DNA from: Clostridia bacterium | Lineage (GTDB): Bacteria; Bacillota; Clostridia; Christensenellales; CAG-138 | Assembly: GCA_017539215.1 (NCBI GenBank) | Contig: JAFYHI010000072.1 | Coordinates: forward strand, 1-59,527 | Direction: 5' to 3' | Length of the DNA: 59,527 bases | Shown: positions 33,031 through 49,938 of the stretch, in pieces | Layout of the letters: each line of letters opens with the position of its first letter | Numbering within the stretch: the first letter of the stretch is position 1 | Notes under the pieces: model-generated | What the model was told of the DNA's origin: nothing | The model's input: only the letters and a program-made list of their open reading frames with translations | The model's database searches: none | Translations under genes and position numbers: made by a program

Positions 33031-33066
33031 GTATAAGATTAAGCTTGAGAGGAGTTGGTCTCATCA

Positions 33067-34230
33067 ATGGATGATGGCAGTATATGGCGATGTATAGCAT
33101 CTGTTTTGCCATCTTCTGCTCCTGACGGAGCGGGTACCCATGCGGTATCGGGCGCTGCGGGCGCCGCATCCGCTGATTTAAGGGTCATAATAATTTACGC
33201 TGTTTTGTTGGTGCTTTTCCTTGTGATAAGCTCCTATTTTGCGTCTTGCGAGATCGCGCTGGCATCCGTTAACAAGGTAAGGATGAAGTCCTATGCCGAG
33301 GACGGCAACCGCCGCGCAAAGTACGTTATGTACATACTGAACAATTTCGACAAGGCGCTTACCACTCTGCTGATAGGCAACAACCTTATGCATATAGGGT
33401 GCTCCGCGCTGGCCGTGCTTATTACGAGGCAGCTCTTCAGAGGCACCCCCTACCTTGCCGCAGCCCTGACCGGAGCGACGGTCATCATTACGCTGCTGGT
33501 GTTCCTGTTTGGCGAAATGCTCCCCAAAGCCCATGCAAAGGCCTGCAACGAGAGCTATTCTTTGAGCATCGGGCATTCGCTGTACATTCTGATGAAGGCC
33601 TTAACGCCCCTTTCCGCCGTGTTTACCTGGATAGGCAAGGGCCTGGGCAAGCTGTTTATGAGGGGCGGTACGGCTCCCTCCGTTACGGAGAACGAGCTTG
33701 TGGACATTATCGAGACGTTTAAGGACGACCGCGAGGAGGACGGCGAGCAGGAGGACGCCACCGCGGAGCTGATGGTGAACGTGCTGCAGTATTCGAGCCG
33801 CACCGTGCGCGACTGCTACACCCCCTGGGATAAGGTCGAGAAGCTTGACGAAACGCTGGAGGTATCCGAGCAGTTCAGGCAGCTGTCGCAGACGAGCCAT
33901 TCAAGGCTGCCCGTCGTGAACTCCAAGGGCAACGTTATCGGCGTGGTGCTGATCCGTTCGTTCTTCCGCGAATACTTAAAGCTGCGCGATAAGCTGGACC
34001 TTGTCGACCTTTTGGACACGCCGTATTTTGTGCGGCCGGACATGCCCGTGGACGAGCTGCTTCTGGACCTTTCCAAGAGCCGCACGCATATAGCGATTGT
34101 AAGCGAACGCAGCGACATACTGGGCATTATAACCGTTGAGGACATACTTGAGGAGCTTGTGGGCGAGATATTCGACGAGTACGACTCCGAGGCGGCAGAA
34201 GGCGCCGCCGCAAAGGGGGCCAAAGCATGA
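33067..34230 (+). CDS. CNNM/CorC-family membrane protein, short form lacking the C-terminal CorC domain
   Basis: A 387-residue protein. An N-terminal DUF21 (CNNM) membrane domain of about four helices begins near residue 40 (VIIIYAVLLVLFLVISSYFASCEIALASVN). A pair of CBS domains follows (TPWDKVEKLDETLEVSEQF and RSDILGIITVEDILEELVGE). It ends soon after the second CBS domain with an acidic/Ala tail, so the CorC_HlyC domain normally present is missing. The family is linked to Mg2+ or other divalent cation export. I use ATG 33067, 12 nt after AGGAG; a TTG four codons upstream directly abuts that site. It overlaps the next gene by 4 nt. Confidence 0.87.
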   Translation: MDDGSIWRCIASVLPSSAPDGAGTHAVSGAAGAASADLRVIIIYAVLLVLFLVISSYFASCEIALASVNKVRMKSYAEDGNRRAKYVMYILNNFDKALTTLLIGNNLMHIGCSALAVLITRQLFRGTPYLAAALTGATVIITLLVFLFGEMLPKAHAKACNESYSLSIGHSLYILMKALTPLSAVFTWIGKGLGKLFMRGGTAPSVTENELVDIIETFKDDREEDGEQEDATAELMVNVLQYSSRTVRDCYTPWDKVEKLDETLEVSEQFRQLSQTSHSRLPVVNSKGNVIGVVLIRSFFREYLKLRDKLDLVDLLDTPYFVRPDMPVDELLLDLSKSRTHIAIVSERSDILGIITVEDILEELVGEIFDEYDSEAAEGAAAKGAKA

Positions 34231-35546
34231 TCATCGTTGCATACACAGCCGTGCTGATAGTGCTGATAGTTTTCTCCGCGATATTCTCGGGGTCGGAGAT
34301 AGCGTATTCTTCGCTTAACGAGAACCGTCTGCGCCATATGGCCGAGGAAGAAAACCGCCGCGAGGCAAAGACCGCGCTCTTCAATTACAGCCGCTACGAC
34401 AACCTGTTAAGCACCATACTCATAGGGAACAATTTTGTGAACCTTGCCGCGTCCACCATTTCAACACAGCTTTTCATACTGCTGCTTGTGGACACCGGGC
34501 TTGTTTCGGAGAACGTTGCCGCGGTCATCTCGACAGCCGTTCTGACCGTCGTGGTGCTTATATTCGGCGAGATAACCCCCAAAATGGTTGCCAACCGCGA
34601 CCCGGACGGTTTTGCGATGAAGCGGGCGTCGTTCCTGAAGATCCTGGGGTACGTTTTTTATCCGCTCGTTTGGGTGGTGTCAAAGATAGTCAAGCTGTTC
34701 TCCAAGCTTTGGGAGGACAAGGTGACGGACGAAACCAACGTGACCGAGGAGGAGCTTTCGGAGATAATCGACACAGTCGAGGAGGAGGGCGTCATAGACG
34801 AGCAAACGAGCGACCTTCTGCAGTCGGCGCTGGAGTTCCCGGACATATACGCATACGAGATAATCACCCCGCGAGTTGATATGGTGGCGGTGGACATAAA
34901 CGACGACCCCGACGAAATAATGGAAACGATACTGTCTTCGAACTTCTCGCGCATTCCGGTGTATGAGGACTCGATAGACAACATCATCGGCGTTATACAT
35001 CTCAACGAGGTATTGAAGGCGATAGCCGACGATACGAAGCTTGACATACGCGAGCATATGCTGCCCGTGTGCTATCTGCACAAGACGACCATACTCCCCC
35101 AGGCGCTGCGCGAACTGCGCGAAAGGAAGCTGCACCTTGCGATAGTCACCGACGAGTACGGCGGCACGATGGGTCTTTTGACTATGGAGGACATACTGGA
35201 GCAGCTTGTAGGCGATATCTGGGACGAATCGGACGAGATCGAGGACGAGCTTGTCAAGACGGGTGAGGACACCTACGAGTGCGACGGCGATATGCGTATC
35301 TACGACCTGCTTGACGCGTTTGACATCGACGACGACGACTTTGACGACGACAACGCGACCGTGGGCGGCTGGGCGATAGAGCAGCTCGGCGGGTACCCCG
35401 CAAAGGGCGAATCCTTCGACTTTGAGAACCTGACGGTGACGGTGAAGCAGATAAAGAACCTGCGCGTGACAAGGCTGTCCATAAAGGTGCATGAAAAACC
35501 GCCCGAGGAGGACGAGGACGACATAGACTGGGACGCGAAAAATTAA
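34227..35546 (+). CDS. CNNM/CorC-family membrane protein, full-length form
   Basis: A 439-residue protein. The DUF21 membrane domain (about 1-170) contains GSEIAYSSLNENRLRHMAEE and LIGNNFVNLAAS. Two CBS domains follow (ITPRVDMVAVDINDDPDEIM and IVTDEYGGTMGLLTMEDILE). A C-terminal CorC_HlyC domain begins near 335 (GDMRIYDLLDAFDI ... ATVGGWAIEQLGGYPAKGE). It is interrupted by a strongly acidic patch of nine Asp in 13 residues, a possible cation site or flexible loop. Start and stop overlap (ATGA) couple it to the short paralogue upstream, which suggests the two are made together and may form a mixed dimer. Confidence 0.9.
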   Translation: MIIVAYTAVLIVLIVFSAIFSGSEIAYSSLNENRLRHMAEEENRREAKTALFNYSRYDNLLSTILIGNNFVNLAASTISTQLFILLLVDTGLVSENVAAVISTAVLTVVVLIFGEITPKMVANRDPDGFAMKRASFLKILGYVFYPLVWVVSKIVKLFSKLWEDKVTDETNVTEEELSEIIDTVEEEGVIDEQTSDLLQSALEFPDIYAYEIITPRVDMVAVDINDDPDEIMETILSSNFSRIPVYEDSIDNIIGVIHLNEVLKAIADDTKLDIREHMLPVCYLHKTTILPQALRELRERKLHLAIVTDEYGGTMGLLTMEDILEQLVGDIWDESDEIEDELVKTGEDTYECDGDMRIYDLLDAFDIDDDDFDDDNATVGGWAIEQLGGYPAKGESFDFENLTVTVKQIKNLRVTRLSIKVHEKPPEEDEDDIDWDAKN

Positions 35547-37245: not shown

Positions 37246-38559
37246 TTAATGCTTCAGCTCTATGTCGTGTTTGCAGAGGCAGTTGCGCTTTGGCGAAACG
37301 TAAACGACACGCATTACGTCGTTATAAAACGAAACGCGCAGCACGAATGCCGATACGATGAAAAGGCGCTCCTCCTCCGAGAGCTCTTCTATGCGCCTTG
37401 CACGGGAGAAAAAGTCCCGAACGTCGTCCGGAGAAAGCGACAGCAGGTCGATCTGGCTTTGGACGCGGCGCACGCGCATATTGAGCATCACCCGTTTATC
37501 GGAGAACTTCATAAGCTCCTTTGATCGCTCGGCATTCGGCTTGTTTTCCAAATAGCTGCCCAAGGCAAGGTTAAAGGCACGGTTCGCCTCCTCCGCCTCA
37601 CTTTGGGCACGCGGAAGCGCGGCCTGCGCCGCGTTGAGCGCCGGAGTCACGAAGGAGCCCAGCAGATGCTCGGCATTCTCCTGCGCGGCGAGCCTGCCGA
37701 CCATGCGATACAGCTCATTTTCGAGGGCGTCGGCGTCTGCCGCGCGGAGAGCATTTGAAGCGGGCCTTGCGCCCATGCGGAAAAACACGGGACGCTCGCC
37801 GCGAATAAGCGGCGCAAAGAAGGGCTCCGCATCAGGCGGTTTCGGATAATCGCGCTCAAAACGGGCGCGGGCGTCGAACCACGTGCGGGTGTCGACCAGC
37901 CCCGGCAGGCTGTACCCTTTTTTTGACCTGCGTCCCGTATAGCGGGCGTTTGACAGCATGGATTTGACCGTCATATGCGTAAAAGTGCCCTGCCGCGAGG
38001 AGGGCATTTCATTTGCCGCTCTGAATATGTCGTAAATGGAGCTGCCCTCCGCATAGGCGCGGAATATGGCGCGTACGACCTGTGCGTCCCGTTCGCATAT
38101 AACGGCCTTGCCCTGCTCCACCATATAGCCGAACGGGGGTTTGCGTGAGAATACTTGGCGGGTATCCCTGGCGGGGAATGCCGTGCCGTAGCCCCGCTGC
38201 CACTGTTCGGCGTACTGAGTCAAAGCTTTTGCCGAGCCTGCCACGCGAAGGCGCGCGTCAAGCGAATACGGCACGCGGCGCATACCGTGCATAAACAGCG
38301 GGCGCACGCCGTTGCGCACCAGAAACAGCAGGTTTTCAAGCGCGGTGTACTCGTCCTCGCCAAGCGTTTCCGGCGAGGGCATAAGCACCCTGCGGCAGGC
38401 GCCGAGCTTTATGAGGTTTTGCAGGTTTCGAAACGAGCCGTACTCGCCGCTGCGATCGCTGAGTACCCCGCGCAGGGCGATGCCGTTCACGCGCGCATAG
38501 GAACGGACGGCCTCCGCAGTAAGGCCGTCCTCCCTGAAATAGCAGTACGTTTCGCTCAT
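37246..38559 (-). CDS. Serine-recombinase homologue without catalytic residues
   Basis: A 437-residue intact protein. Residues about 3-90 match a resolvase-type N-terminal domain in pattern (YCYFRED ... ALRGVLSDRSGEYG ... VRNGVRPLF). The R-x-S catalytic motif is Arg9-Glu-Asp11, so the nucleophilic Ser is absent, and the D-R-L-x-R loop reads E-T-L-G-E (64-68). Residues about 135-240 match the Recombinase domain of large serine recombinases (PPFGYMVEQGKAVICERDAQ ... KSMLSNARYTGR). The expected Cys4 zinc ribbon (about 245-270) has no Cys. A coiled-coil-like region follows. It is coupled to the DUF885 gene upstream (ATGA overlap), and no integration signs flank it. It may be a DNA-binding regulator made from an old recombinase. 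Confidence 0.78.
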   Translation of the reverse strand: MSETYCYFREDGLTAEAVRSYARVNGIALRGVLSDRSGEYGSFRNLQNLIKLGACRRVLMPSPETLGEDEYTALENLLFLVRNGVRPLFMHGMRRVPYSLDARLRVAGSAKALTQYAEQWQRGYGTAFPARDTRQVFSRKPPFGYMVEQGKAVICERDAQVVRAIFRAYAEGSSIYDIFRAANEMPSSRQGTFTHMTVKSMLSNARYTGRRSKKGYSLPGLVDTRTWFDARARFERDYPKPPDAEPFFAPLIRGERPVFFRMGARPASNALRAADADALENELYRMVGRLAAQENAEHLLGSFVTPALNAAQAALPRAQSEAEEANRAFNLALGSYLENKPNAERSKELMKFSDKRVMLNMRVRRVQSQIDLLSLSPDDVRDFFSRARRIEELSEEERLFIVSAFVLRVSFYNDVMRVVYVSPKRNCLCKHDIELKH

Positions 38560-40418
38560 TTGCCCATGTATTCCGCCATTTGATCCATATAATTCGGCCC
38601 GAAGCTCAGATACTTCTCGAAGAAGGCGCGGTGCTGTTCGGGGGTTTGCGGAGAGGCGGACTCGTAGATGTCGGCCATGTATGCATAGCCTATAGCATAG
38701 CTCATTGCGTAGAAGGGCATGGTGACCGCGTACTCATAGAATATGTCGGCGGCGTCCTCCAGGCCGTATTCGGTAAGAAGCTCGGTCACCTGCTCCATGT
38801 CCCAGCCGTCGTAATTGACCTTTATGCTGACGTACGCGGGCATGAACACGTTGCAGAAAGTGCTTTCGCTGTTCATCATGGTGCAGTATTCGGAGCCTAT
38901 CTCGCCGCAGTTGGCGGCAACGAAGCTCTCGGTGAATACCGTCCAGCCCTCTGCATAGCCCGTGGGCTCAAGCGTTTGCTGTGACAGCGGCATACCCGGA
39001 GTGTTCCTTGTGATTAGGAACTGGAGCATATGCCCGGGAAGCGCCTCATGCGCGATCGTAAGCAGGTCTTCGGAGCCCTCGTCGGCGGGGTTTATCATCA
39101 TCGTATTATGGCGGTAATCGTCATAGGGCGGTTCAAGATAGGCTGCAGGGCTGAAATCGTCGGCAATATCGTCCGGAACGGAGACTTTATCCAGCTCATA
39201 CTCGGGCAGAGCGGGATAGTACTGCTCCGCAAAGGAACGGAGCCACTCAAGGTTGTTGTCGACCGAACCGAAGGTGATGGGCTCGCCGTAACGGTCGTAG
39301 ATATCCTCCGGGCCGAACACTATGGCGTTGTACATGGACATATAGGTGTTGTGGCCCATACGCTCAAGCCTGTTCTCGACAACGTTCATGGGCTCCATGG
39401 TCGCGCCCTCGTCGCGGGCGGCAAGGTCAAAATAGGCCTTTGCCTTATCCCCTCGCTTTGCCGCGCCCTCAAACGGGGTGCAGTAGGGACGCAGCGACTC
39501 AAGCGTGTCGGCAAGCGCGGAGTATGCGGGCAGAACGTGCTCCAGAACCGCGGTGCGGTTGCGCTCGGAGGCCGCGGCGATCTGCGAGCTGCCGACGCCG
39601 GCATTTGCGGCCTGCTCAGCAACACGGTCAAAACAGGTGATAAAGGCGCTTTCCCCGCCCGCTTCGGCATAGCCGCGGCAGGATTCGACGACCTGATCCA
39701 AGGCGGTCTCGCACATGAAAAGCCCCTCTGCGGCCTTTTCCTTTTCAAACTCGGCAACGGAGCCGATATAGCGCTCCAGGTCCTCGACGAGCAGGAGATA
39801 CGCTTCGAGATCGTCCGCCGTGCGCACCTTGAAGAGCATCAAATCGATCGGCAGCATGGTGTGGAGGCCGTTCAGCGGCGTGAGCGGCTCGTCATAATAA
39901 TAGTAATCCTCATACATAAGGGTGACTTCAAGATTGCGCATCAGCGCATCGTACCCTATGCGGTTGCGCTCGGAGAGCGCATCGCGGTCTATCTCTGCAA
40001 GTTCGGCCTGCATTTGGCGGCAGTCCGCCATGGAGGCCATATGCGCTTCAAGGCTGAACTCGCCCCAGCCGGACTCGACCTCGGCGGGGTCTATGCCGAA
40101 CCTTCCGGGGTCGCCGGAAACGGCCGCGTTATAGCTCAGGGCGTCCGCAGTAACAGCGGAGCGGAAGAATTCAAGGTCTATCGCCTCGAACTCAGCGTCT
40201 GCTTCTGTGGGCGTATGGGCATCCTCGGTGGGGGCCGCGGGCACGCCCGTGGGTCCGGCGGGCTCCGTCACGGGAGCATCCGTCACGGGAGCATCCGTCA
40301 CGCCCTCCTCATGTGCGGCAACACCGTTTATGACCTCGCGTATGTTATCGACAAGGCGGCAGCCGCCAAGCGAAAGGAGCATGACGGCGGCAAGCAGTAA
40401 ACAAAGCGTTTTCTTCAT
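38556..40418 (-). CDS. DUF885-family lipoprotein, putative metallopeptidase
   Basis: A 620-residue exported protein with lipobox LGGC (Cys20) and a Thr/Pro/Ala linker (about 40-75). The long alpha-helical DUF885 domain contains the family motif HEALPGH at about 457-463 inside LLTIAHEALPGHMLQFL, a zinc-binding-like HExxPGH. GYAEGWTVFTESFVA, downstream, supplies a further conserved Glu. Relatives are thought to be peptidases; substrates are unknown. It ends by overlapping the recombinase-like gene and starts 64 nt after the AlgX-like gene, with two small hairpins between. Confidence 0.82.
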   Translation of the reverse strand: MKKTLCLLLAAVMLLSLGGCRLVDNIREVINGVAAHEEGVTDAPVTDAPVTEPAGPTGVPAAPTEDAHTPTEADAEFEAIDLEFFRSAVTADALSYNAAVSGDPGRFGIDPAEVESGWGEFSLEAHMASMADCRQMQAELAEIDRDALSERNRIGYDALMRNLEVTLMYEDYYYYDEPLTPLNGLHTMLPIDLMLFKVRTADDLEAYLLLVEDLERYIGSVAEFEKEKAAEGLFMCETALDQVVESCRGYAEAGGESAFITCFDRVAEQAANAGVGSSQIAAASERNRTAVLEHVLPAYSALADTLESLRPYCTPFEGAAKRGDKAKAYFDLAARDEGATMEPMNVVENRLERMGHNTYMSMYNAIVFGPEDIYDRYGEPITFGSVDNNLEWLRSFAEQYYPALPEYELDKVSVPDDIADDFSPAAYLEPPYDDYRHNTMMINPADEGSEDLLTIAHEALPGHMLQFLITRNTPGMPLSQQTLEPTGYAEGWTVFTESFVAANCGEIGSEYCTMMNSESTFCNVFMPAYVSIKVNYDGWDMEQVTELLTEYGLEDAADIFYEYAVTMPFYAMSYAIGYAYMADIYESASPQTPEQHRAFFEKYLSFGPNYMDQMAEYMGK

Positions 40419-40482: not shown

Positions 40483-41550
40483 TCAGTAACCGAGCGAGCT
40501 TGCGTGCTGATATAATAGATCGAGGTTGCGCTCGACAAGCTCGATCAAAACGGCGTCCGGCTCGACCTTATCAAGCACGGTAAGGTCGTACGGGAAATAG
40601 CTGTTCATATACAGCGTGCCGACGGACTGCGACAGTATGGGCTGCAGCGAACGCCCGAAGGAATCATGATAAACGGCCATGGTGCACGAAGCGTCTGCGC
40701 AGGAGGTCTCGACTATCTTGTCCCTGTCGAAGTTTATGGGCTTTTTGGAGGTATATGCGTGGAATTCGGGGTAAATGATGCGCTCCTCCGGATGCACCGT
40801 GGAGGGGTAAACAAAGTTGTGCAGGTCGCCCGTGCGGTCGAATTCGACCGTATAGGCGTCCGCGTCGTACTGCTCCAGCCCGAATTCGCGCGCGATATCG
40901 TTGTAGACGAGCATTGCGCCGTAGTTGTTCCAATGCGAATCGTGCTCATAATACACGGTGCGGGTATCCTTTGCGCGAAGGAGTATCGACTTGGCGTCTA
41001 TGACGGGCACTCCCTTTTGGCGAAGGGCCCCTGTGAGCAGGTCGATATTGCGGTCGGCGTCCGTGGGTGCAAGCCTCTTCGGCATATACTCGGGGTATAT
41101 CGTGGCCTTGTTGGGCGCCGTCATAAAGGCAAAATCAACGCCCTTTTCGGCAAACCCACGCCATAGGTCGGCAAGGTAGTTTGCTATGGACTGTATCTCG
41201 TCTTCCGTCAGCCCGTTTATGCCGAGGTAATCGTCCAGGGTCTCGGCATAGAAGATATGGTTTTTTTTGCCGATCACGGCGTTGGTGCCGTTGAAGTCGC
41301 CCAGCAGCGCGACGTCTGCTGCGTTGAACCCGGTAACGATGTATTCGCGCAGGGCAAAATTATCCTCGACGTATTTATCGAACTGAGAGGCGAAGTCGGA
41401 ATTCAGGCCGTCCTCTGTCACAAGCTTGGGCATTTTCGCAAGCACGCGGTTTTCACGGTTGGCGTTCTTGTAGCCGCAAAACATGAGCACCGACGGCACA
41501 AGGCACAGGGCAAGCACGACGGCGACGAATATGACGTGAAACTTTTTCAT
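40483..41550 (-). CDS. AlgX/DHHW-like SGNH-type protein, partner of MBOAT acyltransferase
   Basis: A 355-residue protein with one N-terminal membrane anchor (about 5-25); the rest is extracytoplasmic. The domain resembles AlgX/AlgJ/DHHW proteins: ENRVLAKMPKL near the start, NFALREYIV, HIFYAETLDDYLG, DSHWNNYGA (204-207 is DSHW), and YHDSFGRSLQPIL, which brings the Asp-Ser pair. Such proteins take acyl groups handed over by an MBOAT and attach them to a polysaccharide. The MBOAT gene lies 12 nt upstream, supporting this role. Confidence 0.85.
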   Translation of the reverse strand: MKKFHVIFVAVVLALCLVPSVLMFCGYKNANRENRVLAKMPKLVTEDGLNSDFASQFDKYVEDNFALREYIVTGFNAADVALLGDFNGTNAVIGKKNHIFYAETLDDYLGINGLTEDEIQSIANYLADLWRGFAEKGVDFAFMTAPNKATIYPEYMPKRLAPTDADRNIDLLTGALRQKGVPVIDAKSILLRAKDTRTVYYEHDSHWNNYGAMLVYNDIAREFGLEQYDADAYTVEFDRTGDLHNFVYPSTVHPEERIIYPEFHAYTSKKPINFDRDKIVETSCADASCTMAVYHDSFGRSLQPILSQSVGTLYMNSYFPYDLTVLDKVEPDAVLIELVERNLDLLYQHASSLGY

Positions 41551-41562
41551 GCGGATACCCCC

Positions 41563-42966
41563 TTAAAACTGAGTGTAGATGGAGGGGTTGTAATTGCCGG
41601 AAGCGATGAAGCAAACGCAGAGCGCAAACAAAATGAGCGCCGCGCCGTACTTCAGCGCAAAGGCAAGCTTGGGTTTGGCTTCAAGCCTCTCCCCCAGCCT
41701 TTCGGCGACGGGTGAAGCCGCGATGACGCCTACGGCGAAGGCTGCGAGAACGGTGGGCTTGAAGAGCGCGGAGAGCGCGGCGACGGTATCCGCCCCCACG
41801 CCGAAGCCGGCAAACATATTGCGTATCATTGCCCATGCGTACGCCATATTCGGCGAATTGAAAATGACGAACCCGACCGTGACCGCAAGCAGAGTATAAA
41901 TGCGGGTGATCAGCCTTGGCAGGCGGATGCGGGACTTTTTAACGTAATTCTCCGCCAAAAGGAACACGCCGTTGTATGCGCCCCACACGACGAAGGTCCA
42001 GTTTGCGCCGTGCCAGAGGCCCGTCAGCAGGAACACGATCACCTTATTGAGGCCGGTTCGGAAGGCGCCCTTGCGGTTGCCGCCCAGGGGGATATAGACG
42101 TAATCCCTGAACCAGCGCGACAGCGTGATATGCCACCTGCGCCAAAAGTCGGTCATGCTGTACGCGGCGTAGGGGTGGTCGAAGTTCTTGGGTATAGTGA
42201 AGCCGAACATGCGCCCGAGGCCAATCGCCATTTGCGAATACCCCGCGAAATCGAAGTAGATCTGCAGCAGGAAGCAGAGCGCCCCCGCCCAGGCGTAGGC
42301 GATATTGAGCGAACCCGGCTCTATCGCAAAGACGTACGACGTGACGCGCCCGAGGGTGTTTGCTATAACGAGCTTCATCGCAAGGCCGATTATAAAGAGG
42401 CGCAGACCCTCGGCAGCGCCCTCTGCCGTGACCCTGCGGGAGTCAAGCTCGCGCTCGATGCTGTTCCAGCGGATTATGGGCCCCTGTACGAGCTGAGCGA
42501 AGAAGCAGATATAGAGCAGGAACTTGCCCGGGTCCTTGGTGGGCCTGACCTCGCCCCTGTAAGAATCTATAACGTAGCTCAACGCCTGGAAGGTGAAGAA
42601 GCTGATGCCGAGCGGACTTAAAATGCCGAGCGGGCGTATGGACGAGCCGAACACCGAATTGACCGAAGCGATGGCAAAATCGGCATATTTCATAACGGCA
42701 AGCAGGCCGATGTTGAATACGACCGCGATTATGAGCGCCGCCTTTTTGGGGCGCTCCCCCGCCCTGCCGATCCACAGCGCAAGCAGATAGTTGACCGCTG
42801 CGGAAAGCAGCATTATGGGAACGAAAGAAAGCCGCCCCCAAGCGTAAAGCACAAGGCTTGCGGCTATCAGCAGCCAGTTGCGGACCTGCTTCCACGGGAG
42901 TACCGTGTGAAGCAGGAACACAGCGGGCAGGAATATAAACAAGAATACAGCCGATGCGAATTCCAA
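41563..42966 (-). CDS. MBOAT-family O-acyltransferase (AlgI/DltB-like)
   Basis: A 467-residue polytopic membrane protein. The conserved middle region FDFAGYSQMAIGLGRMFG is followed by PKNFDHPYAAYSMTDFWRRWHITLSRWFRDY and the catalytic His in GLWHGANWTFVVWGAY. It probably moves acetyl groups from cytoplasmic acetyl-CoA across the membrane for the AlgX-like partner downstream. It starts with TTG at 42966, 9 nt after GGAG. No dlt genes are nearby, so the acceptor is more likely a polysaccharide or wall polymer than D-alanylated teichoic acid. Confidence 0.92.
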   Translation of the reverse strand: MEFASAVFLFIFLPAVFLLHTVLPWKQVRNWLLIAASLVLYAWGRLSFVPIMLLSAAVNYLLALWIGRAGERPKKAALIIAVVFNIGLLAVMKYADFAIASVNSVFGSSIRPLGILSPLGISFFTFQALSYVIDSYRGEVRPTKDPGKFLLYICFFAQLVQGPIIRWNSIERELDSRRVTAEGAAEGLRLFIIGLAMKLVIANTLGRVTSYVFAIEPGSLNIAYAWAGALCFLLQIYFDFAGYSQMAIGLGRMFGFTIPKNFDHPYAAYSMTDFWRRWHITLSRWFRDYVYIPLGGNRKGAFRTGLNKVIVFLLTGLWHGANWTFVVWGAYNGVFLLAENYVKKSRIRLPRLITRIYTLLAVTVGFVIFNSPNMAYAWAMIRNMFAGFGVGADTVAALSALFKPTVLAAFAVGVIAASPVAERLGERLEAKPKLAFALKYGAALILFALCVCFIASGNYNPSIYTQF

Positions 42967-42983: not shown

Positions 42984-43571
42984 TTAATTGGAGTAGCTGG
43001 GAGAATAGATGTAGATCTCGGATACGGCGTCGTCTTCAAAGAGGAACTGTATCCTCATCTCGGAGATGTTTTCGATATCGGCGGACTCGGTATAGGTGAG
43101 GTAGCCGTCGTCAAAATAATTCTCGCCGTAAGCGGCGATGACCTCGTCACGGGTAGCGCCCACGGTTATGCCGCGGGTCGTGGTGTAGGCGGGACCTGTG
43201 ATGGTGAACATCTCGATGATATCCGCGCCGCCATCGGGAACGGTGCTGACGGTGATGCCGTCATAGGTGAAGGTCTTGTCATAGCCGTCGTAAACGCAGC
43301 TTACGGTTTCGCCGTAGGTGTAGCCGTCGCCGAGGACGGAGAGCACCTCCGCGCTGTCAACGCGCACGGGGTATGCCTTGCCGTTGATGACGACCGCCAT
43401 ATCGGCCTCGTTATCAAAGGGCTTGCCCTTCATGTCCTGAACCTCGGTGGGGTCTGCGGGCGCGGAGCCCTCGGAGCCTTCGGGGTCTGTGGAGGGTGCG
43501 GGAGAGTTGGTGCATGCCGCAAGCGCGAGCAGCATAACGAGTGCGGTCAAGATCGCGAGAAACTTTTTCAT
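42984..43571 (-). CDS. Small lipoprotein of unknown function
   Basis: A 195-residue exported protein with signal peptide and lipobox ALAAC (Cys20), then a short Ser/Pro/Glu linker. The mature part is acidic and beta-rich (GKPFDNEADMAVVINGKAYPV ... DEVIAAYGENYFDDGYLTYTE). The segment GITVGATRDEVIAAYG resembles the small repeat seen in many Firmicutes lipoproteins where G-x-T-x(2)-E-V is followed by a Gly. No catalytic motif is evident. The longer frame upstream is discarded because ATG 43571 begins a perfect signal peptide. It lies between the VanX-like and MBOAT genes. Confidence 0.78.
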   Translation of the reverse strand: MKKFLAILTALVMLLALAACTNSPAPSTDPEGSEGSAPADPTEVQDMKGKPFDNEADMAVVINGKAYPVRVDSAEVLSVLGDGYTYGETVSCVYDGYDKTFTYDGITVSTVPDGGADIIEMFTITGPAYTTTRGITVGATRDEVIAAYGENYFDDGYLTYTESADIENISEMRIQFLFEDDAVSEIYIYSPSYSN

Positions 43572-43651
43572 GTGATTTCCTGTGCCTGAAAGGCAGCCTT
43601 TCCCGGCCTTTAGGCCGAAGTGATATTTACCGCGTACCGCGCGGCGCGGGG

Positions 43652-44752
43652 TCAGGGCCTGTCGTAGCCCAACTGATAGGCGGTGTACATGGGTATGTCC
43701 GCCATGTCGATATCCATCACGATAAAGGACGGATAATCGGTGTCTGAAAAATGCCACCACTCCGTATTGATGAGCTTGAACCCGGAATCCAGCATGACGT
43801 TCGTCATATAGTCCACGTTGCGGCGCTGTTCGTCGGTCCACTCGGAGGCAGAGGAACGGTACACCTTTTTTGTGAACGTGTGCATGGGAGTGGGAAACTC
43901 AAGCTCTTTCCCGTTGCGGTCAAGCAGCGTTATGTCAACGGCGGCCGCCCTGTTATGGTTGGACGCGCTGTTGTAGGGGTTGGCGATATAGGCGGAGTTC
44001 TGCACTATATCGTAAAGAATGAACTGCACGGACTTGGGACGGTAGCTGTCGTAAAGCTTGATGGTGTAGCCGTCCCGTCTGAAGCGGTCCGCCGCGGCTG
44101 CGAGCTTTTTGGCGGTCGCGGTCTGCAAAACCGGCACCGGGCGCTTGTACAGCACGCGTCCCGTGAAGTTTTTGTCCGTGCCGAATATCTGATAGACCGT
44201 GATGTCGGGTATGACGAGGCGCAGGTCTATAAGCTCGGACTTGAGCGTGATGGGCGTCACGCCGTCGGACTCATACTCGATATTGCCGTGGCTGTCCTTT
44301 TTATACTCGTACATAGGGGCCAGGTAGCCGTACAGCTGCTCGGACGCAGGCACGACGAAGCGGTTTGCGCAGTAACACTCGGCGCCGTTATAAAGCACGC
44401 GAAGAAAGTCCTCGTTGGCGGCGTCTATGACCTCCACCGTTTCCTCAAAACCGATGGTCGCAACGACGGCGCTGTCGGTGTTGGGCTCCGCCCTGAGATT
44501 AAGCGCATTGACGCGGCTTTTGAAAAGCGAGGTCACAAGCGGGGTCGCGGTGGGCTCCGCCGTGGGTACGGACGTCGGCGCGGGAGTGGGCGCATCCGTG
44601 ACCTCGGGCGTGGGGATGAATGCTTCGGCGCTGTCCTCAGCCGCCGTCGGCAGAGCCGTGGGAGTTTGCGTGCCGATCGGCTCCGTGAAGTACCCGCAGC
44701 CCGAAGCGGCGAGTATGGCCGCCGCAAAAAACAAACACACAAGCTTTTTCAT
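43652..44752 (-). CDS. VanX/DdpX-like D-Ala-D-Ala dipeptidase lipoprotein with SH3 domain
   Basis: A 366-residue exported protein with a lipobox-like LAASGC (Cys19), a Pro/Thr/Ala linker (about 28-72) and a bacterial SH3 domain (about 80-135: VNALNLRAEPNTDSAVV). The peptidase M15D domain runs from about 175. Zinc and catalytic residues of VanX are all present: SNHNRAAAVD (His266, Asp273), EWWH (Glu331, His334) and the stabilising Arg in YDSYRP (238). VanX itself is cytoplasmic, whereas this form faces outside, so it may trim peptide stems or recycle dipeptide rather than give vancomycin resistance. It starts 1 nt after the L,D-transpeptidase gene. Confidence 0.9.
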   Translation of the reverse strand: MKKLVCLFFAAAILAASGCGYFTEPIGTQTPTALPTAAEDSAEAFIPTPEVTDAPTPAPTSVPTAEPTATPLVTSLFKSRVNALNLRAEPNTDSAVVATIGFEETVEVIDAANEDFLRVLYNGAECYCANRFVVPASEQLYGYLAPMYEYKKDSHGNIEYESDGVTPITLKSELIDLRLVIPDITVYQIFGTDKNFTGRVLYKRPVPVLQTATAKKLAAAADRFRRDGYTIKLYDSYRPKSVQFILYDIVQNSAYIANPYNSASNHNRAAAVDITLLDRNGKELEFPTPMHTFTKKVYRSSASEWTDEQRRNVDYMTNVMLDSGFKLINTEWWHFSDTDYPSFIVMDIDMADIPMYTAYQLGYDRP

Positions 44753-44753
44753 A

Positions 44754-45452
44754 TCAATTGCCTTTCAGCGCGTCAACGTCGGTGGGATCATAGCCCTTCT
44801 TCTCAATGGGGGGTACGTCGGCGCTTTGCGTGCCCTTGGGGCTGCCGTTTACGATCTCGAGCTTGGTGCCCTCGGGGCAATGCTCGTAGATGAACTTTGC
44901 CGCGCGTGTGACCATCCTCAGGCAGCCGCCCGTGCTGTCTGTGCCGATGCCCTTATCGCCGCTGTAATAGCTGGGCCAGATCCTTGAAGGATCCTGCGCG
45001 CCGTACATGGGCGAATGCACGAAAAGGTTGCCCCAATAGGGCGTGGCGTACTGGGCGCTGCCGCCAAGGGGAAAGTCGTGCCAGCGCTCACGGTCGCCGG
45101 AGAGCGTGAATATGCCGGTGGGCGTGCGGTTGCCGCCATGGGCCACCTTGTACCTGTCCACCACCACGGTGTATTCGAAATTCTCGTCCTTGGCATAAAT
45201 GGTAAGGGTGTGAGAGCCCTTTTCCACATAAAGGTAATAGGGATGCTCCGGGTCGGGATCGACCGGGTCGGTGGGCGCCGGAGTGTCGGTGGGGTCGGGG
45301 ACCTTTGTGGGAACGGCGGAAGGGCCCGCCGTAAGCTGAGGCCTTGCGGTGTTTAAGATGTCAACGGCTACTTCCCCGTCGCCGCGGCAGCCGTAAAGCG
45401 CGGCTGCGGAGAGAACGAGGATCATAATTGCAGCGAACTTTATATATTTCAT
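44754..45452 (-). CDS. L,D-transpeptidase (YkuD) lipoprotein
   Basis: A 232-residue exported protein: lipobox LYGC (Cys22), a Pro/Thr/Asp linker (about 45-70), then a YkuD domain. The catalytic region is HSPMYG (His146) and GTDSTGGCLRM (Cys177). Such enzymes make 3-3 cross-links in peptidoglycan or attach proteins, and resist most penicillins. Two adjacent ATGs exist; I use the second, which sits 6 nt after GGGAG. It is the first gene of the envelope operon and has a consensus promoter. Confidence 0.93.
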   Translation of the reverse strand: MKYIKFAAIMILVLSAAALYGCRGDGEVAVDILNTARPQLTAGPSAVPTKVPDPTDTPAPTDPVDPDPEHPYYLYVEKGSHTLTIYAKDENFEYTVVVDRYKVAHGGNRTPTGIFTLSGDRERWHDFPLGGSAQYATPYWGNLFVHSPMYGAQDPSRIWPSYYSGDKGIGTDSTGGCLRMVTRAAKFIYEHCPEGTKLEIVNGSPKGTQSADVPPIEKKGYDPTDVDALKGN

Positions 45453-45481
45453 CATTGTCTCCCATTTTATAGTCAATTTTC

Positions 45482-45510
45482 ATTATACCACGCCGGAACG
45501 AGGATTTCAA
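45482..45510 (-). promoter_or_regulatory. Sigma-A promoter of the envelope operon
   Basis: On the minus strand: -35 TTGAAA (45505-45510), 17-bp spacer, -10 TATAAT (45482-45487). The divergent promoter lies 32 bp away. Confidence 0.83.
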
Positions 45511-45542
45511 TCCAAAAAGGCATTTCCGTTTTATTTTTGCAA

Positions 45543-45571
45543 TTGAACGGAGCGCAAAGCCGTGTTATAAT
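45543..45571 (+). promoter_or_regulatory. Sigma-A promoter of the DUF512 radical-SAM/der unit
   Basis: -35 TTGAAC (45543-45548), 17-bp spacer, -10 TATAAT (45566-45571). A GCCCC/GGGGC hairpin (45599-45612) sits in the leader directly before the weak ribosome-binding region. Confidence 0.8.
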
Positions 45572-45623: not shown

Positions 45624-46973
45624 ATGAAGCATCTTGTAACGGCGGTGGACGCGGGGTCCATTGCCGACGGGCTTGGCGTGCGCGCCGGATGGAAGCTCGT
45701 TTCCGTAAACGGGAACAGCATCCGCGACGTTATCGACTACGAGCTGTTTACCAATGAAGAACGCATAACCGCCGCGTTTGAAAACGCGGACGGCGTCGAG
45801 GTCTGCTTTGATATCGACAAGGAGCCGTGGGAGCCGCTTGGGCTCAATTTCGAGACCGGTCTTATGAGCCCCGTGCGCCAATGCACCAACCACTGCGTTT
45901 TCTGCTTTATCGATCAAATGCCGCGCGGGCACCGCGATACCCTGTACTTCAAGGACGACGATTGGCGGCTTTCGCTGATAATGGGCAACTACGTTACGCT
46001 GACGAACGTGGGCGAACGCGAGTTTCGCCGCATTATTGACAGGCGCGTACAGCCGCTGTACATATCGGTGCATGCCACGGACGGCGCGGTGCGCAAGCAG
46101 ATGATGCGCTCCAAAAACGCCGACCTGATACTCGAAAGGCTCACCGCGCTGCACGAAAACGGCCTTAAATTCCACGCGCAGATAGTGCTCTGCCCCGAGC
46201 TTAACGGCGGAGCCGTGCTTGACAGGACTCTGCGCGACCTGTGGGCGCTCGCCCCCGAGGCGCAGTCGGTCGCTGTCGTGCCCGTGGGGCTGACCGAACA
46301 CCGCGAGGGGCTTTACCCGTTAAAGCCCTTGACGCGGGAGGACGCGAAGCGTGCGATAGTTCAGGTGGACGCGTTTGCAAAGGAATGCGGCGCAGAGGGC
46401 TTTGCGTTCTGCTCGGATGAGATGTATCTGCGCGCCGGGCTGCCCCTGCCGCCCTATGAGTTTTACGGCGGGTTCGACCAGATAGAAAACGGCGTCGGGC
46501 TGTTTCGCCTGTTCGAGGAAGGGTTCATGGCCGCGCTTGAAGAAACCGCGCCCCTCCCCCGCCCCGTTAAGTTCAGCTCCGTCTGCGGCGTTGCGATAGC
46601 CGGCAATATGCAGGAGCTGTTCGACAGGCTCATCCCCTACGGTATAAGCATTCAGGTGAAGGCTATACGCAACCGTTTCTTCGGAGAAAGCGTTACCGTT
46701 TCGGGGCTTGTTACGGCAGGGGACATAATCAGACAGGGACGCAGCCTGTTTACGGGCGACGCGCTGATTATGACCTCATCGATGCTGCGCGAGATGGACG
46801 ACGTGTTTTTGGACGGTATGCGCGTGCCGCAGCTTTCGGAGGCCGTCGGCCTGCCCGTTTACCCCATGCCCTCCGACGACGGAGAGGCGTTTATCGTCCG
46901 GCTGTTCGAGCTGGCGCAGAGTATGATAAGTAAGACGGATACCGCGCCGTTTTGTGCGGGATCGGAGGAATAA
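45624..46973 (+). CDS. DUF512 radical-SAM protein with N-terminal PDZ-like domain
   Basis: A 449-residue cytoplasmic protein of unknown reaction, widespread in Clostridia next to der. Residues 1-65 are PDZ-like (AGSIADGLGVRAGWKLVSVNG). The radical-SAM cluster is CTNHCVFCFIDQMP (about 87-100), binding a 4Fe-4S cluster and SAM. The following TIM-barrel portion includes DDWRLSLIMGNYVTLTN. The C-terminal DUF512 region ends with GDALIMTSSMLREMDDVFLDG. It abuts der with no gap. The ribosome-binding site is weak and lies behind a hairpin, hinting at low or controlled translation. Confidence 0.92.
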   Translation: MKHLVTAVDAGSIADGLGVRAGWKLVSVNGNSIRDVIDYELFTNEERITAAFENADGVEVCFDIDKEPWEPLGLNFETGLMSPVRQCTNHCVFCFIDQMPRGHRDTLYFKDDDWRLSLIMGNYVTLTNVGEREFRRIIDRRVQPLYISVHATDGAVRKQMMRSKNADLILERLTALHENGLKFHAQIVLCPELNGGAVLDRTLRDLWALAPEAQSVAVVPVGLTEHREGLYPLKPLTREDAKRAIVQVDAFAKECGAEGFAFCSDEMYLRAGLPLPPYEFYGGFDQIENGVGLFRLFEEGFMAALEETAPLPRPVKFSSVCGVAIAGNMQELFDRLIPYGISIQVKAIRNRFFGESVTVSGLVTAGDIIRQGRSLFTGDALIMTSSMLREMDDVFLDGMRVPQLSEAVGLPVYPMPSDDGEAFIVRLFELAQSMISKTDTAPFCAGSEE

Positions 46974-48302
46974 ATGAAACCCTTAGTTGCAATAGTGGGC
47001 CGCCCTAACGTGGGCAAATCGACCCTTTTCAACCGCGTTGTGGGCAAGCGCATAGCCATTATAGAGGACACGCCCGGCGTTACCCGCGACCGCATTTACG
47101 GCGACGCGGAATGGCTGACCCACAGCTTTACCGTGATCGACACGGGCGGTATAGAGCCCGACACCGAGGACATAATACTTTCGCAGATGCGCCGCCAGGC
47201 GGAGCTTGCGATAGAGACCTCGCACGTTATCATATTCGTAGTGGACGGGCGCGAGGGGCTGACCGCCGCCGACATGGAGGTGGCGGAGATGCTGCGCCGC
47301 TGCAAAAAGCCCATTGTACTGTGCGTGAACAAGGTGGATCACGTTAAGTACGAGGATACCGCTTACGATTTTTACTCGCTGGGCATAGGCGACCCCATAA
47401 CCGTTTCGGCTGAACAGGGGTTGGGCATTGGCGACCTTTTGGACGAGGTCTGCAAATACTTCCCCGCGATAGAGGCTGACGAGGGCGGCGAGGCCATACA
47501 GATAGCGGTGGTCGGCAAACCGAACGTGGGCAAATCGAGCCTTGTCAATATGCTGCTGGGGCAGGAGCGCACGATCGTTTCGAACATACCCGGCACCACG
47601 AGGGACGCGATAGACACGCCCTTCCGCTATAACGAAAAGGACTATGTGCTGATAGACACGGCGGGGATAAGGCGCAAGCGCGCCGTCGGAGACGAGAACG
47701 TGGAGCGATACTCCGTAATTCGCTCGCTTGCGGCTATACGCAGGTGCGACGTGGCGCTTGTCGTGGTGGACGCGGAGCAGGGCCTCTCCGAGCAGGACGT
47801 GAGGATAGCCGGCTATGTTCACGAGGAGGGCAAGGCAAGCGTGCTGATAGTCAACAAATGGGACCTTATCGAAAAGGACACTCATACCGTCGAGAAGTTC
47901 AAAAAGGATATGCTCACCGATCTTGCGTTTATGAGCTACGTTCCGATGCTGTTCATTTCCGCCAGGACGGGCCAGCGCGTGCCCCGCGTTATGGAGCAGG
48001 CCAACGCCGTTCTGGAGCAGGCGTCAACGCGCATCTCCACCGGCATACTGAACGACGTTATCGGCGAGGCCGTGACCATGTCAGAGCCGCCCTTTGTAAA
48101 GGGCAGGAAGCTGCGCATTTTCTACAGCACTCAGGTCAGCGTAAAGCCGCCGACCTTCGTAATATTCGTGAATGACGCTGAGCTGATGCACTTCTCTTAC
48201 AGGCGATATCTTGAGAATTACATTCGTAAATCGTTCCGTCTGGATTCCGTGCCGATAAGGCTCATTATAAGGAACAGGGCCGAGGAGCAGGACCGCGGCT
48301 GA
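46974..48302 (+). CDS. der: Ribosome assembly GTPase Der (EngA)
   Basis: A 442-residue essential GTPase with two tandem G domains, G1 [11 protein letters not shown] (about 8-18) and [11 protein letters not shown] (about 183-193). DTGGI and DTAGIRRK are the G3 motifs, and NKVD and NKWD are the G4 motifs. A C-terminal KH-like domain ([24 protein letters not shown]) binds rRNA. It functions in 50S maturation. In many Firmicutes plsY and/or gpsA sit between der and spoIVA; both are absent here. Confidence 0.98.
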
Positions 48303-48336
48303 CGCTCACAAAGTTAATGCGAACACAAACGGCAAA

Positions 48337-48366
48337 GCCTCCCGCAGTTTTGCGGGGGGCCTTTTT
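48337..48366 (+). terminator. Terminator after der
   Basis: GCCTCCCGCA, loop GTTT, TGCGGGGGGC (one G-U pair), then CTTTTT. It separates der from spoIVA, so spoIVA must have its own promoter. Confidence 0.88.
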
Positions 48367-48391
48367 GCGCGGGAAAATGCCGCCGTCTTCT

Positions 48392-48422
48392 GTCATTTAC
48401 GCGGGGGCAGCCTCATATTAAT
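48392..48422 (+). promoter_or_regulatory. Candidate sigma-E promoter of spoIVA
   Basis: GTCATTTA (48392-48399) and CATATTAAT (48414-48422) with 14 bp between resemble the mother-cell sigma-E boxes (GTCATATT / CATACAAT). This fits spoIVA, which is sigma-E controlled in Bacillus. No good sigma-A promoter is seen here. Confidence 0.45.
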
Positions 48423-48456
48423 TGTGTGAAAAACGATTAGCCGAAGGGAGATCATT

Positions 48457-49938
48457 ATGGACAGAGCTCAGCTTTACCGCGATATTGCGATGCGCACTCA
48501 GGGGGACATTTACATTGGCGTTGTCGGGCCGGTGCGCACGGGCAAATCGACCTTTATAAAGCGCTTTATGGATACGCTTGTAATACCCGGGATCGAAAAC
48601 GAGCACGTTCGGCAGAGGGTCATTGACGAACTGCCGCAGAGCGGCTCCGGCAGAACGGTTATGACGACCCAGCCCAAATTTGTGCCGAACGACGCCGTTT
48701 CGATACGCCTTGCGGACGACGCGGCGGAGCTTTCTGTGCGCATGATAGACTGTGTGGGATACATGGTGGAGGGCGCTTTGGGCGGCAGCGAGGAGGACGT
48801 GCCGCGCATGGTGCGCACGCCGTGGTTCGACCACGACATACCCTTTGACGAGGCGGCGGAGATAGGCACGCGCAAGGTCATAACCGAGCATTCAACGGTG
48901 GGGATCGCTGTGCTGACGGACGGGTCCATAACCGGGCTGCCCCGTGAAGCGTACCGCGAAGCGGAGGAAAAGGTATTTGCTGAGCTTAAACGCACGGGCC
49001 GCCCGTTTGCGGCGGTGCTGAACAGCACTCATCCAAACGACGCTGACGCCATCGCCGCCGCGGCAGAGGCCTCGAAGCGTTACGGCACGGAGGTGATACC
49101 CCTTGACGTTATGAATATGACCTCCTCGGACATAAACCGTCTGCTTGAAAGCATGCTGTACGATTTTCCGATGCGGACGCTGGCTGTGGAGCTGCCCCGA
49201 TGGGTGCGGCGGCTTGACGCCGAAAGCCCCATTCTCGCCTGCGTGACGGATGCGCTGAGGGGCTGTATGGGCGACGTGCGCAAAATGCGCGACCACGAGC
49301 GGGTGTGCGAGGCGCTGCGCGAAACGGAGTATTTTGAAGCGCCGCTGCTTTCAAAGCTTACGCTTGGCGACGGGTGCGCAAGGTACCGTCTGGAGCCTAA
49401 AGAGGGGCTGTTTTTCAGCGTGCTTAGCAGGGAATGCGGCGTGGAGGTAAAGGACGAATCCGACCTGATGCGGCTTATGCGCGAGTATTCGTCCGCAAAG
49501 AAGGAGTACGACCGCGTTGCCCCCGCGCTGAAGGCGGCAAGCGAGTTCGGTTACGGGCTTGTGCCGCCGGTGATAGACGAAATGGTTTTGGATAAGCCGG
49601 AGATAGTCAGACAGGGCACGCGGTTCGGTGTGCGGCTGAAGGCGCACGCGTCGGGTCTGCACGTTATAAGGGTGGACATAGAGAGCGAGGTAAACCCCTT
49701 GGTCGGCACCGCCGAACAGGGCGAGGAGCTTGCGGGCTGCCTAATGACCGCGTATGAGACCAAGCCCGACGAGATATGGTCGACGAACATATTCGGCAAG
49801 CCCATTTACGACCTTGTGCGCGACGGCATGGCGGGAAAGATAAACAACCTGCCGCCCGAGGTGCAGTTGAAGCTGAAGGAAACCCTTACGCGGATGGTGA
49901 ACGACGGCTGCAGCGGGCTCATATGCATACTGCTGTAA
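48457..49938 (+). CDS. spoIVA: Stage IV sporulation protein A
   Basis: A 493-residue ATPase that polymerises on the forespore surface and forms the base layer of the spore coat. It starts DRAQLYRDIAMRTQGDIYIG. Walker A is GPVRTGKSTFIKRFMD (about 24-39), IDCVGYMVEGA is the Walker B-like segment, and the C-terminus reads GCSGLICILL, the tail that anchors to SpoVM in Bacillus. Length matches Bacillus (492). It shows that the organism makes, or descended from makers of, endospores. A ribosome-binding site AGGGAG precedes the ATG. Confidence 0.98.
   Translation: MDRAQLYRDIAMRTQGDIYIGVVGPVRTGKSTFIKRFMDTLVIPGIENEHVRQRVIDELPQSGSGRTVMTTQPKFVPNDAVSIRLADDAAELSVRMIDCVGYMVEGALGGSEEDVPRMVRTPWFDHDIPFDEAAEIGTRKVITEHSTVGIAVLTDGSITGLPREAYREAEEKVFAELKRTGRPFAAVLNSTHPNDADAIAAAAEASKRYGTEVIPLDVMNMTSSDINRLLESMLYDFPMRTLAVELPRWVRRLDAESPILACVTDALRGCMGDVRKMRDHERVCEALRETEYFEAPLLSKLTLGDGCARYRLEPKEGLFFSVLSRECGVEVKDESDLMRLMREYSSAKKEYDRVAPALKAASEFGYGLVPPVIDEMVLDKPEIVRQGTRFGVRLKAHASGLHVIRVDIESEVNPLVGTAEQGEELAGCLMTAYETKPDEIWSTNIFGKPIYDLVRDGMAGKINNLPPEVQLKLKETLTRMVNDGCSGLICILL

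Follow-up and report, generated by a model that had tools for sequence, protein, structure and literature searches.

A large-serine-recombinase homologue without its cutting residues, very probably domesticated in three genera of Clostridia

A degenerate recombinase frame in an intact gene

We analysed a 59,527-nt stretch of DNA from an assembly of an uncultured bacterium labelled Clostridia bacterium (contig JAFYHI010000072.1 of GCA_017539215.1, positions 1 to 59,527; hereafter the window), focusing on a minus-strand gene for a 437-residue homologue of large serine recombinases, which we call the dead recombinase. An earlier note on this DNA had read it as a domesticated, non-catalytic DNA-binding protein. 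The frame is unbroken, as that note had it, and divides into the following parts:

37246..38559, minus strand: catalytically dead large-serine-recombinase homologue, 437 aa
38257..38559, minus strand: residues 1-101, remnant catalytic domain, identified by residue alignment and by fold match to serine recombinase catalytic domains
37846..38157, minus strand: residues 135-238, Recombinase (helix-turn-helix) DNA-binding domain, the best conserved part
37684..37845, minus strand: residues 239-292, former zinc ribbon, with no Cys, the least conserved part
37435..37683, minus strand: residues 293-375, predicted coiled-coil hairpin (helices 293-338 and 343-373)

The only Pfam match in the protein is PF07508 (Recombinase; residues 158-229, E 7.6e-10, 39.4 bits against a cut-off of 21.1), which agrees with the claim that this domain was kept; PF00239 (Resolvase) is unmatched. 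Residues 134-215 also match integrases in PHROGs (E 2.5e-15). Structure prediction gave a confident model (pLDDT 89) resembling large serine integrases, and the predicted model and its fold matches suggest a large-serine-recombinase fold with a coiled-coil arm; searching solved structures by sequence returned one match, at chance level. Relatives fall into three genera, here labelled g1 (that of the window), g10 and g12. Across 22 family members, PF07508 is matched in 20 and PF00239 in none (E 0.01). The recognition-helix region reads HMTVKS in the window protein and mostly NMTVKT in its genus; the pattern MTVK[ST] is found in 11 of 14 rows from g1 and g12, and differs in P0003, G011, G023 and all eight g10 rows.

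Loss of catalytic and zinc residues, probably stepwise

Residues were compared in an alignment of the 22 family members with five canonical recombinases, with catalytic positions named by their gamma-delta residue numbers. One comparison row (L081) is ended by a contig edge, and in another (L084) the frame as read is missing the R-x-S stretch; among the family rows, those of G003 and G007 (at contig ends) and P0003 (on a 2.2-kb contig) are incomplete, and P0001, 99% identical to the window protein, and P0004 were left out. In the window protein, the R-x-S motif reads Arg9-Glu10-Asp11, the D-R-L-x-R loop reads Glu64-Thr-Leu-Gly-Glu68, and none of the four zinc positions holds a Cys, each as previously described. 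The further statement that every catalytic residue is replaced is correct for Ser10 (now Asp11), Arg68 (Thr65) and Arg71 (Glu68), but goes too far because Arg8 is kept as Arg9. Tyr6 is likewise kept, as Tyr7, Asp67 has become the similar Glu64, and neither the Arg45 segment nor the Gln19 position is left, both being gaps in the alignment.

These losses extend through the family. Arg68 and Arg71 are each absent from all 22 rows, Arg45 is gapped in 21 of the 21 rows reaching that position, Gln19 occurs in none of the 20 that reach it, and no row has more than one of the four zinc Cys. Other positions vary: Arg8 is kept in 13 of 20 rows, Asp67 in 8 of 22, and Ser10 in four of the 20 rows that reach it, all from g10 (G071, G073, G069, G067). 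Since these four members keep Ser10, while Arg68 and Arg71 are missing throughout and zinc Cys number at most one, the arginine and zinc losses probably came before that of the serine, as alignment and tree both suggest. Three sequences (L074:7364-8743, L082:6284-7681 and P0004) read R-C-S at the active site despite having lost Arg68 and Arg71, and may possibly represent an intermediate stage of decay. Of 49 recombinase frames outside the dead family that were also found by profile, a simple pattern picks out R-x-S in 45, and the remaining four all retain C-x-x-C.

Distribution and phylogeny

Scanning genome contigs with the one protein as query at first turned up no relative. With a family profile, strong matches (E 1.3e-112 or better) were obtained in 20 of the 103 genomes of the window's taxonomic family, one copy each: 11 of 13 in g1, 8 of 11 in g10, the sole g12 genome (G023), and none in the other 23 genera. 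The genomes without a match are G004 (61% complete) and G009 (53%) in g1, and G066 (82%), G070 (94%) and G074 (91%) in g10; up to 16 candidates were scored per genome, and a member in G074 could be hidden. Among 396 genomes of the order, sampled from a larger set and with up to four candidates scored in each, the best match outside the three genera reached only E 1.2e-37, and the 21 frames from the 20 best such loci all retain catalytic or zinc motifs. A search of 5.8 billion proteins yielded four clusters at E 1e-60 among the best 7,996 candidates by shared words. Of 80 named glutamine synthetase loci, 7 carry the gene, in metagenome-assembled genomes labelled Clostridia or Clostridiales, three of which name rumen or abomasum in their titles; the next closest of these loci bear the labels Christensenellaceae (L169, L171), Clostridia or Oscillospiraceae.

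When 22 dead and 31 canonical recombinases are placed in one tree, a single branch divides the two sets (SH-aLRT, an approximate likelihood-ratio branch support, 100), and within the dead branch g1 plus g12 (99) separate from g10 (84). This tree was built with a "quick" method without bootstrap, and several long branches meet in it, which limits the detail that can be read. The canonical rows were chosen by the motif Y-x-R-x-S (31 of 32 loci; L084 was dropped), so that the label "canonical" depends on the residues being scored. Identity of the dead recombinase to the five canonical comparison proteins is 16-20%.

Selection on the dead recombinase

The gene is under purifying selection, with dN/dS (ratio of nonsynonymous to synonymous substitution rates, Nei-Gojobori) of 0.145-0.21 in three genome pairs. 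For G073/G069 the ratio is 0.145 at dS 0.073, with 0.24 for the neighbouring amidohydrolase, 0.07 for MiaB and 0.035 for MutS; for G002/G012 it is 0.18 at dS 1.46, with 0.16 for MBOAT, 0.10 for DUF885, 0.08 for the AlgX-like gene and 0.009 for glnA; for G006/G003 it is 0.21 at dS 2.2. None of 20 copies has an internal stop, two of them being ended by contig edges. The earlier note had named a decaying pseudogene, with dN/dS near 1, as the alternative; intact frames and these ratios point the other way.

Conservation differs along the protein. Likeness across the 14 g1 and g12 rows is 0.45 for the Recombinase domain, 0.40 for the catalytic remnant and 0.22 for the former zinc ribbon. When nonsynonymous and synonymous differences (pN/pS) were compared per domain, the Recombinase domain was lowest in one pair and tied with the helix segment 102-134 in the other two.

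Genomic neighbourhood in the window and in relatives

In the window, the dead recombinase is the last gene of a likely minus-strand operon, running from a YkuD gene through an M15 peptidase, a small lipoprotein-like gene, MBOAT, an AlgX-like gene and DUF885 to the dead recombinase and a hairpin:

45482..45510, minus strand: operon promoter-like site with an extended -10, matching at 11 of 12 positions
44754..45476, minus strand: YkuD L,D-transpeptidase (PF03734), first gene of the likely operon
43652..44752, minus strand: M15-type peptidase (PF01427) with SH3 domain, 366 aa, likely operon
42984-43841: small operon gene, unmatched in Pfam; it probably starts within the called frame, with what resembles a lipoprotein signal
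41563..42966, minus strand: MBOAT O-acyltransferase (PF03062), likely operon
40483..41550, minus strand: AlgX-type SGNH protein (PF16822), likely operon
38556..40418, minus strand: DUF885 (PF05960) gene, 620 aa, lipoprotein-type start
37207-37188, minus strand: intrinsic-terminator-like hairpin and six-T run behind the dead recombinase
45506..45547, no strand: inverted repeat TTCAAT-N30-ATTGAA joining two -35 boxes, candidate operator
45624-49938: DUF512, der (EngA) and spoIVA, divergent from the envelope operon

The 4-nt overlap with DUF885 described earlier is there, as ATGA, and so is a terminator-like hairpin with six T, in a scan that gave 18 such sites in 9 kb against 9.9 in shuffled sequence. 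A promoter scan by itself performed at chance level (4 sites against 3.8 in shuffles); we trust the operon promoter-like site because its boxes recur in all seven aligned genomes. Elsewhere in the window, two overlapping genes for CNNM/CBS-type membrane proteins (391 and 439 aa; 33055-35546) lie near glnA and are conserved in the genus.

Coupling to DUF885, which the earlier note proposed to check in homologues, is frequent without being universal: of the 19 loci that could be read, 13 have the gene immediately after DUF885. Ten of these are in g1 (G000, G007, G006, G001, G005, G010, G002, G012, G008, G011), one in g12 (G023) and two in g10 (G072, G065); the G003 locus, ended by a contig edge, falls outside the 19. 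The junction is a stop-start overlap (ATGA, TAATG or TGATG) in nine of the ten g1 loci, and in G011 the genes are 1 nt apart. Neighbour gene calls are longest-frame guesses, and DUF885 was missed in G011 and G087 and found there by another search. In five g10 genomes (G071, G073, G069, G068, G067) the gene instead sits between an amidohydrolase gene and miaB-mutS, in the same direction, followed by mutL in four and miaA in three of the five, the remainder being ended by contig edges; the Pfam names for this arrangement were read from G069. In G021 it lies at a place different from both. The DUF885 site is probably the older location, as judged from the tree, in which G072 and G065 stand apart from the rest of g10. 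At 16 further DUF885 loci (seven in g10, nine in other genera), no family member was called beside DUF885 among longest-frame guesses.

Two side observations concern g10. A gene with a Spo0A-type C-terminal domain, a name taken from Pfam in L076, lies upstream in four of the five loci L076:4788-15701, L074, L075, L080 and L082. In G072 (L077), homologues of DUF512, der/EngA and spoIVA lie directly downstream of the dead recombinase.

Mobility, possible partners and defence

The earlier note had seen no att-like or mobile-element features, and we find the same: the window holds no tRNA, and none of five two-copy direct-repeat families between 35500 and 46000 brackets the gene. Searches with tblastn gave five weak matches in 50,697 phage records and one in 72,556 plasmid records, each limited to 24% of the protein's length or less. 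In viral contigs, scanned for the one peptide pattern that was usable, 51 stretches matched and not one was a relative; PADLOC defence models gave no match.

Resolvase-type recombinases are common in the taxonomic family, with PF00239 matched in 88 of the 103 genomes. Among the carriers it is absent from G000 (70% complete) and G006 (91%), and matches number 1 to 11 in the remaining 18, most in G065 (11), G023 (9), and G008 and G071 (8 each). In the window's own genome, of 1.64 Mb in 86 contigs and some 70% complete, PF00239 is unmatched and PF07508 is matched once, by the dead recombinase itself. Because of the two carriers without a Resolvase match, the structural partnership suggested in the earlier note, if taken as one with an active recombinase, is unlikely as a general role. 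We also considered and set aside DUF885 itself as partner: reading the sequences, a lipoprotein-type signal is found at the start of DUF885 and none on the dead recombinase, so that the two proteins likely act in different compartments and a partnership is unlikely.

A candidate operator at the divergent promoter

The region between the envelope operon and DUF512-der-spoIVA is conserved mainly at its promoter boxes, and in the genus the two -35 boxes together form TTCAAT-N30-32-ATTGAA. All eight g1 genomes in which that YkuD/DUF512 promoter was read have this inverted repeat, whose interior is unconserved in sequence and nearly constant in length, and it is the sole such site in the genomes G000, G011, G008, G006, G001 and G007, with a reversed control of 0. 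In G010 and G012, whose proteins have the same recognition helix, the M15 gene is apparently the first of the operon, and the one promoter in front of it lacks the repeat; these single promoters also use TTGAA-type -35 boxes. G010 has two chance sites elsewhere, with a control of 2.

Interpretation and alternative explanations

Taken together, three genera on one branch, purifying selection and no mobile context seen agree with the earlier view of a domesticated, non-catalytic descendant of a serine recombinase, and we consider it very probable that the protein is catalytically dead and domesticated. Given a dismantled cutting site and a DNA-binding domain conserved above all other parts, the protein has likely ceased to rearrange DNA. 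With Ser, Arg68, Arg71 and the zinc Cys lost and the helix-turn-helix domain best conserved, we favour, with moderate confidence, a protein that binds specific DNA sequences without catalysis, most probably as a regulator of transcription, and that was likely domesticated in the common ancestor of the three genera. In this scheme dimerisation may still proceed via the old catalytic domain, and DNA would be bound mainly through the Recombinase domain. The gene would be co-expressed with those in front of it, and the neighbouring operon would be the first candidate target.

Several observations weigh against this DNA-binding regulator. Two of the 22 members have no PF07508 match at E 0.01, and in two of the eight g10 rows the PF07508 domain has a net charge of 0 and -1. 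The catalytic remnant is nearly as well conserved in the genus as the DNA-binding domain, so a role resting on the remnant is possible, and pS is near saturation in the per-domain comparison. The gene is bound to no single operon across carriers, and it is missing from 83 of the 103 family genomes, including 3 of 11 in g10, and is therefore dispensable in near relatives. Finally, the carriers G010, G012 and G023 lack the repeat at the operon promoter, and the G002 genome, though a carrier, has no such repeat anywhere, its operon start being unread.

This last point bears most directly on a local autoregulator, which would bind the divergent promoter (45482-45571) across the two -35 boxes and couple the operon to DUF512-der-spoIVA. 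The recurrence of the repeat in every YkuD/DUF512 promoter read in g1 and its uniqueness in six genomes speak for such an operator, as does its length, since a symmetric site of 42-44 bp is within the size range of serine integrase dimer sites, for which PMC3783163 gives 25 bp per attP half-site. Against it stand the carriers without the repeat, the chance sites in G010, and the arms themselves, which two -35 boxes alone would explain because the single promoters in G010 and G012 use the same type of box. We provisionally take the repeat to be two -35 boxes and the result for a candidate operator to be mostly negative. Regulation of the envelope operon, as the earlier note had supposed, is thus not borne out, the sole candidate operator being missing from carriers and the DUF885 coupling not universal; that the dead recombinase regulates its own operon strikes us as improbable, and local autoregulation across this promoter as equally so. 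A broader proposal, which we regard as speculative and rather unlikely, would make this branch part of a new class of host regulators that retain the entire large-serine-integrase scaffold. Long symmetric sites would be read through the Recombinase domain and bridged, without recombination, by the coiled-coil arms, the divergent envelope/spoIVA promoter being among the targets.

The protein might instead act in trans as a brake, blocking incoming serine recombinases by covering attachment sites or by entering into inactive mixed dimers. The shared predicted fold, the retained Recombinase domain and the abundance of Resolvase-type enzymes would suit such a role, but 18 of 20 carriers still hold those enzymes, defence models do not match and identity to canonical recombinases is low, and we think this quite unlikely. 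Continued recombination, with a different nucleophile or alongside an active partner in a complex, is very improbable: Tyr7 and Arg9 are retained and four g10 members keep Ser, but Arg68 and Arg71 are missing from every row and the Arg45 segment from every row reaching it, and neither G000 nor G006 has a Resolvase match. A decaying relic, an inactive gene on its way to loss, would fit the fast change of the protein (32-39% identity within the genus, against 89-95% for glnA), but is contradicted by the lack of internal stops in 20 copies from three genera, by dN/dS of 0.15-0.21, and by the DUF885 overlap kept in nine of ten g1 loci; we consider it extremely improbable.

Relation to known recombinases

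Serine integrases have been studied as DNA cutters. A family without the chemistry and with the DNA-binding part shows what uses the scaffold has once freed from recombination, and supplies naturally occurring sequences with which to ask where among the domains site recognition resides. For annotation it carries a warning, as a protein matching only PF07508 may be no recombinase. Our searches of one open-access library found no paper on a naturally dead large serine recombinase.

The dead recombinase shares with large serine integrases (Listeria LI integrase, PhiC31, Bxb1, TP901-1) the fold matches, PF07508, and a domain order of catalytic domain, Recombinase domain, zinc-ribbon place and predicted coiled coil. 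Unlike them, it has no PF00239 match, lacks Ser (in the window protein), Arg68, Arg71 and the zinc Cys, and sits at stable chromosomal places where no attachment sites were seen. Among its best profile-search relatives outside the dead branch are canonical recombinases of the same order with YARYS/DRFSR/CGYC-type motifs (such as L079 and L145), which differ in having the catalytic and zinc residues and in being scattered, often with several per genome. The closest parallel in kind is with the domesticated prokaryotic mobile-element enzymes described in the review PMC8987985, where a mobile-element gene was likewise recruited by the host and maintained by selection. Recruited serine recombinases named there still recombine DNA, by inversion or excision, whereas the dead recombinase has lost the residues for recombination.
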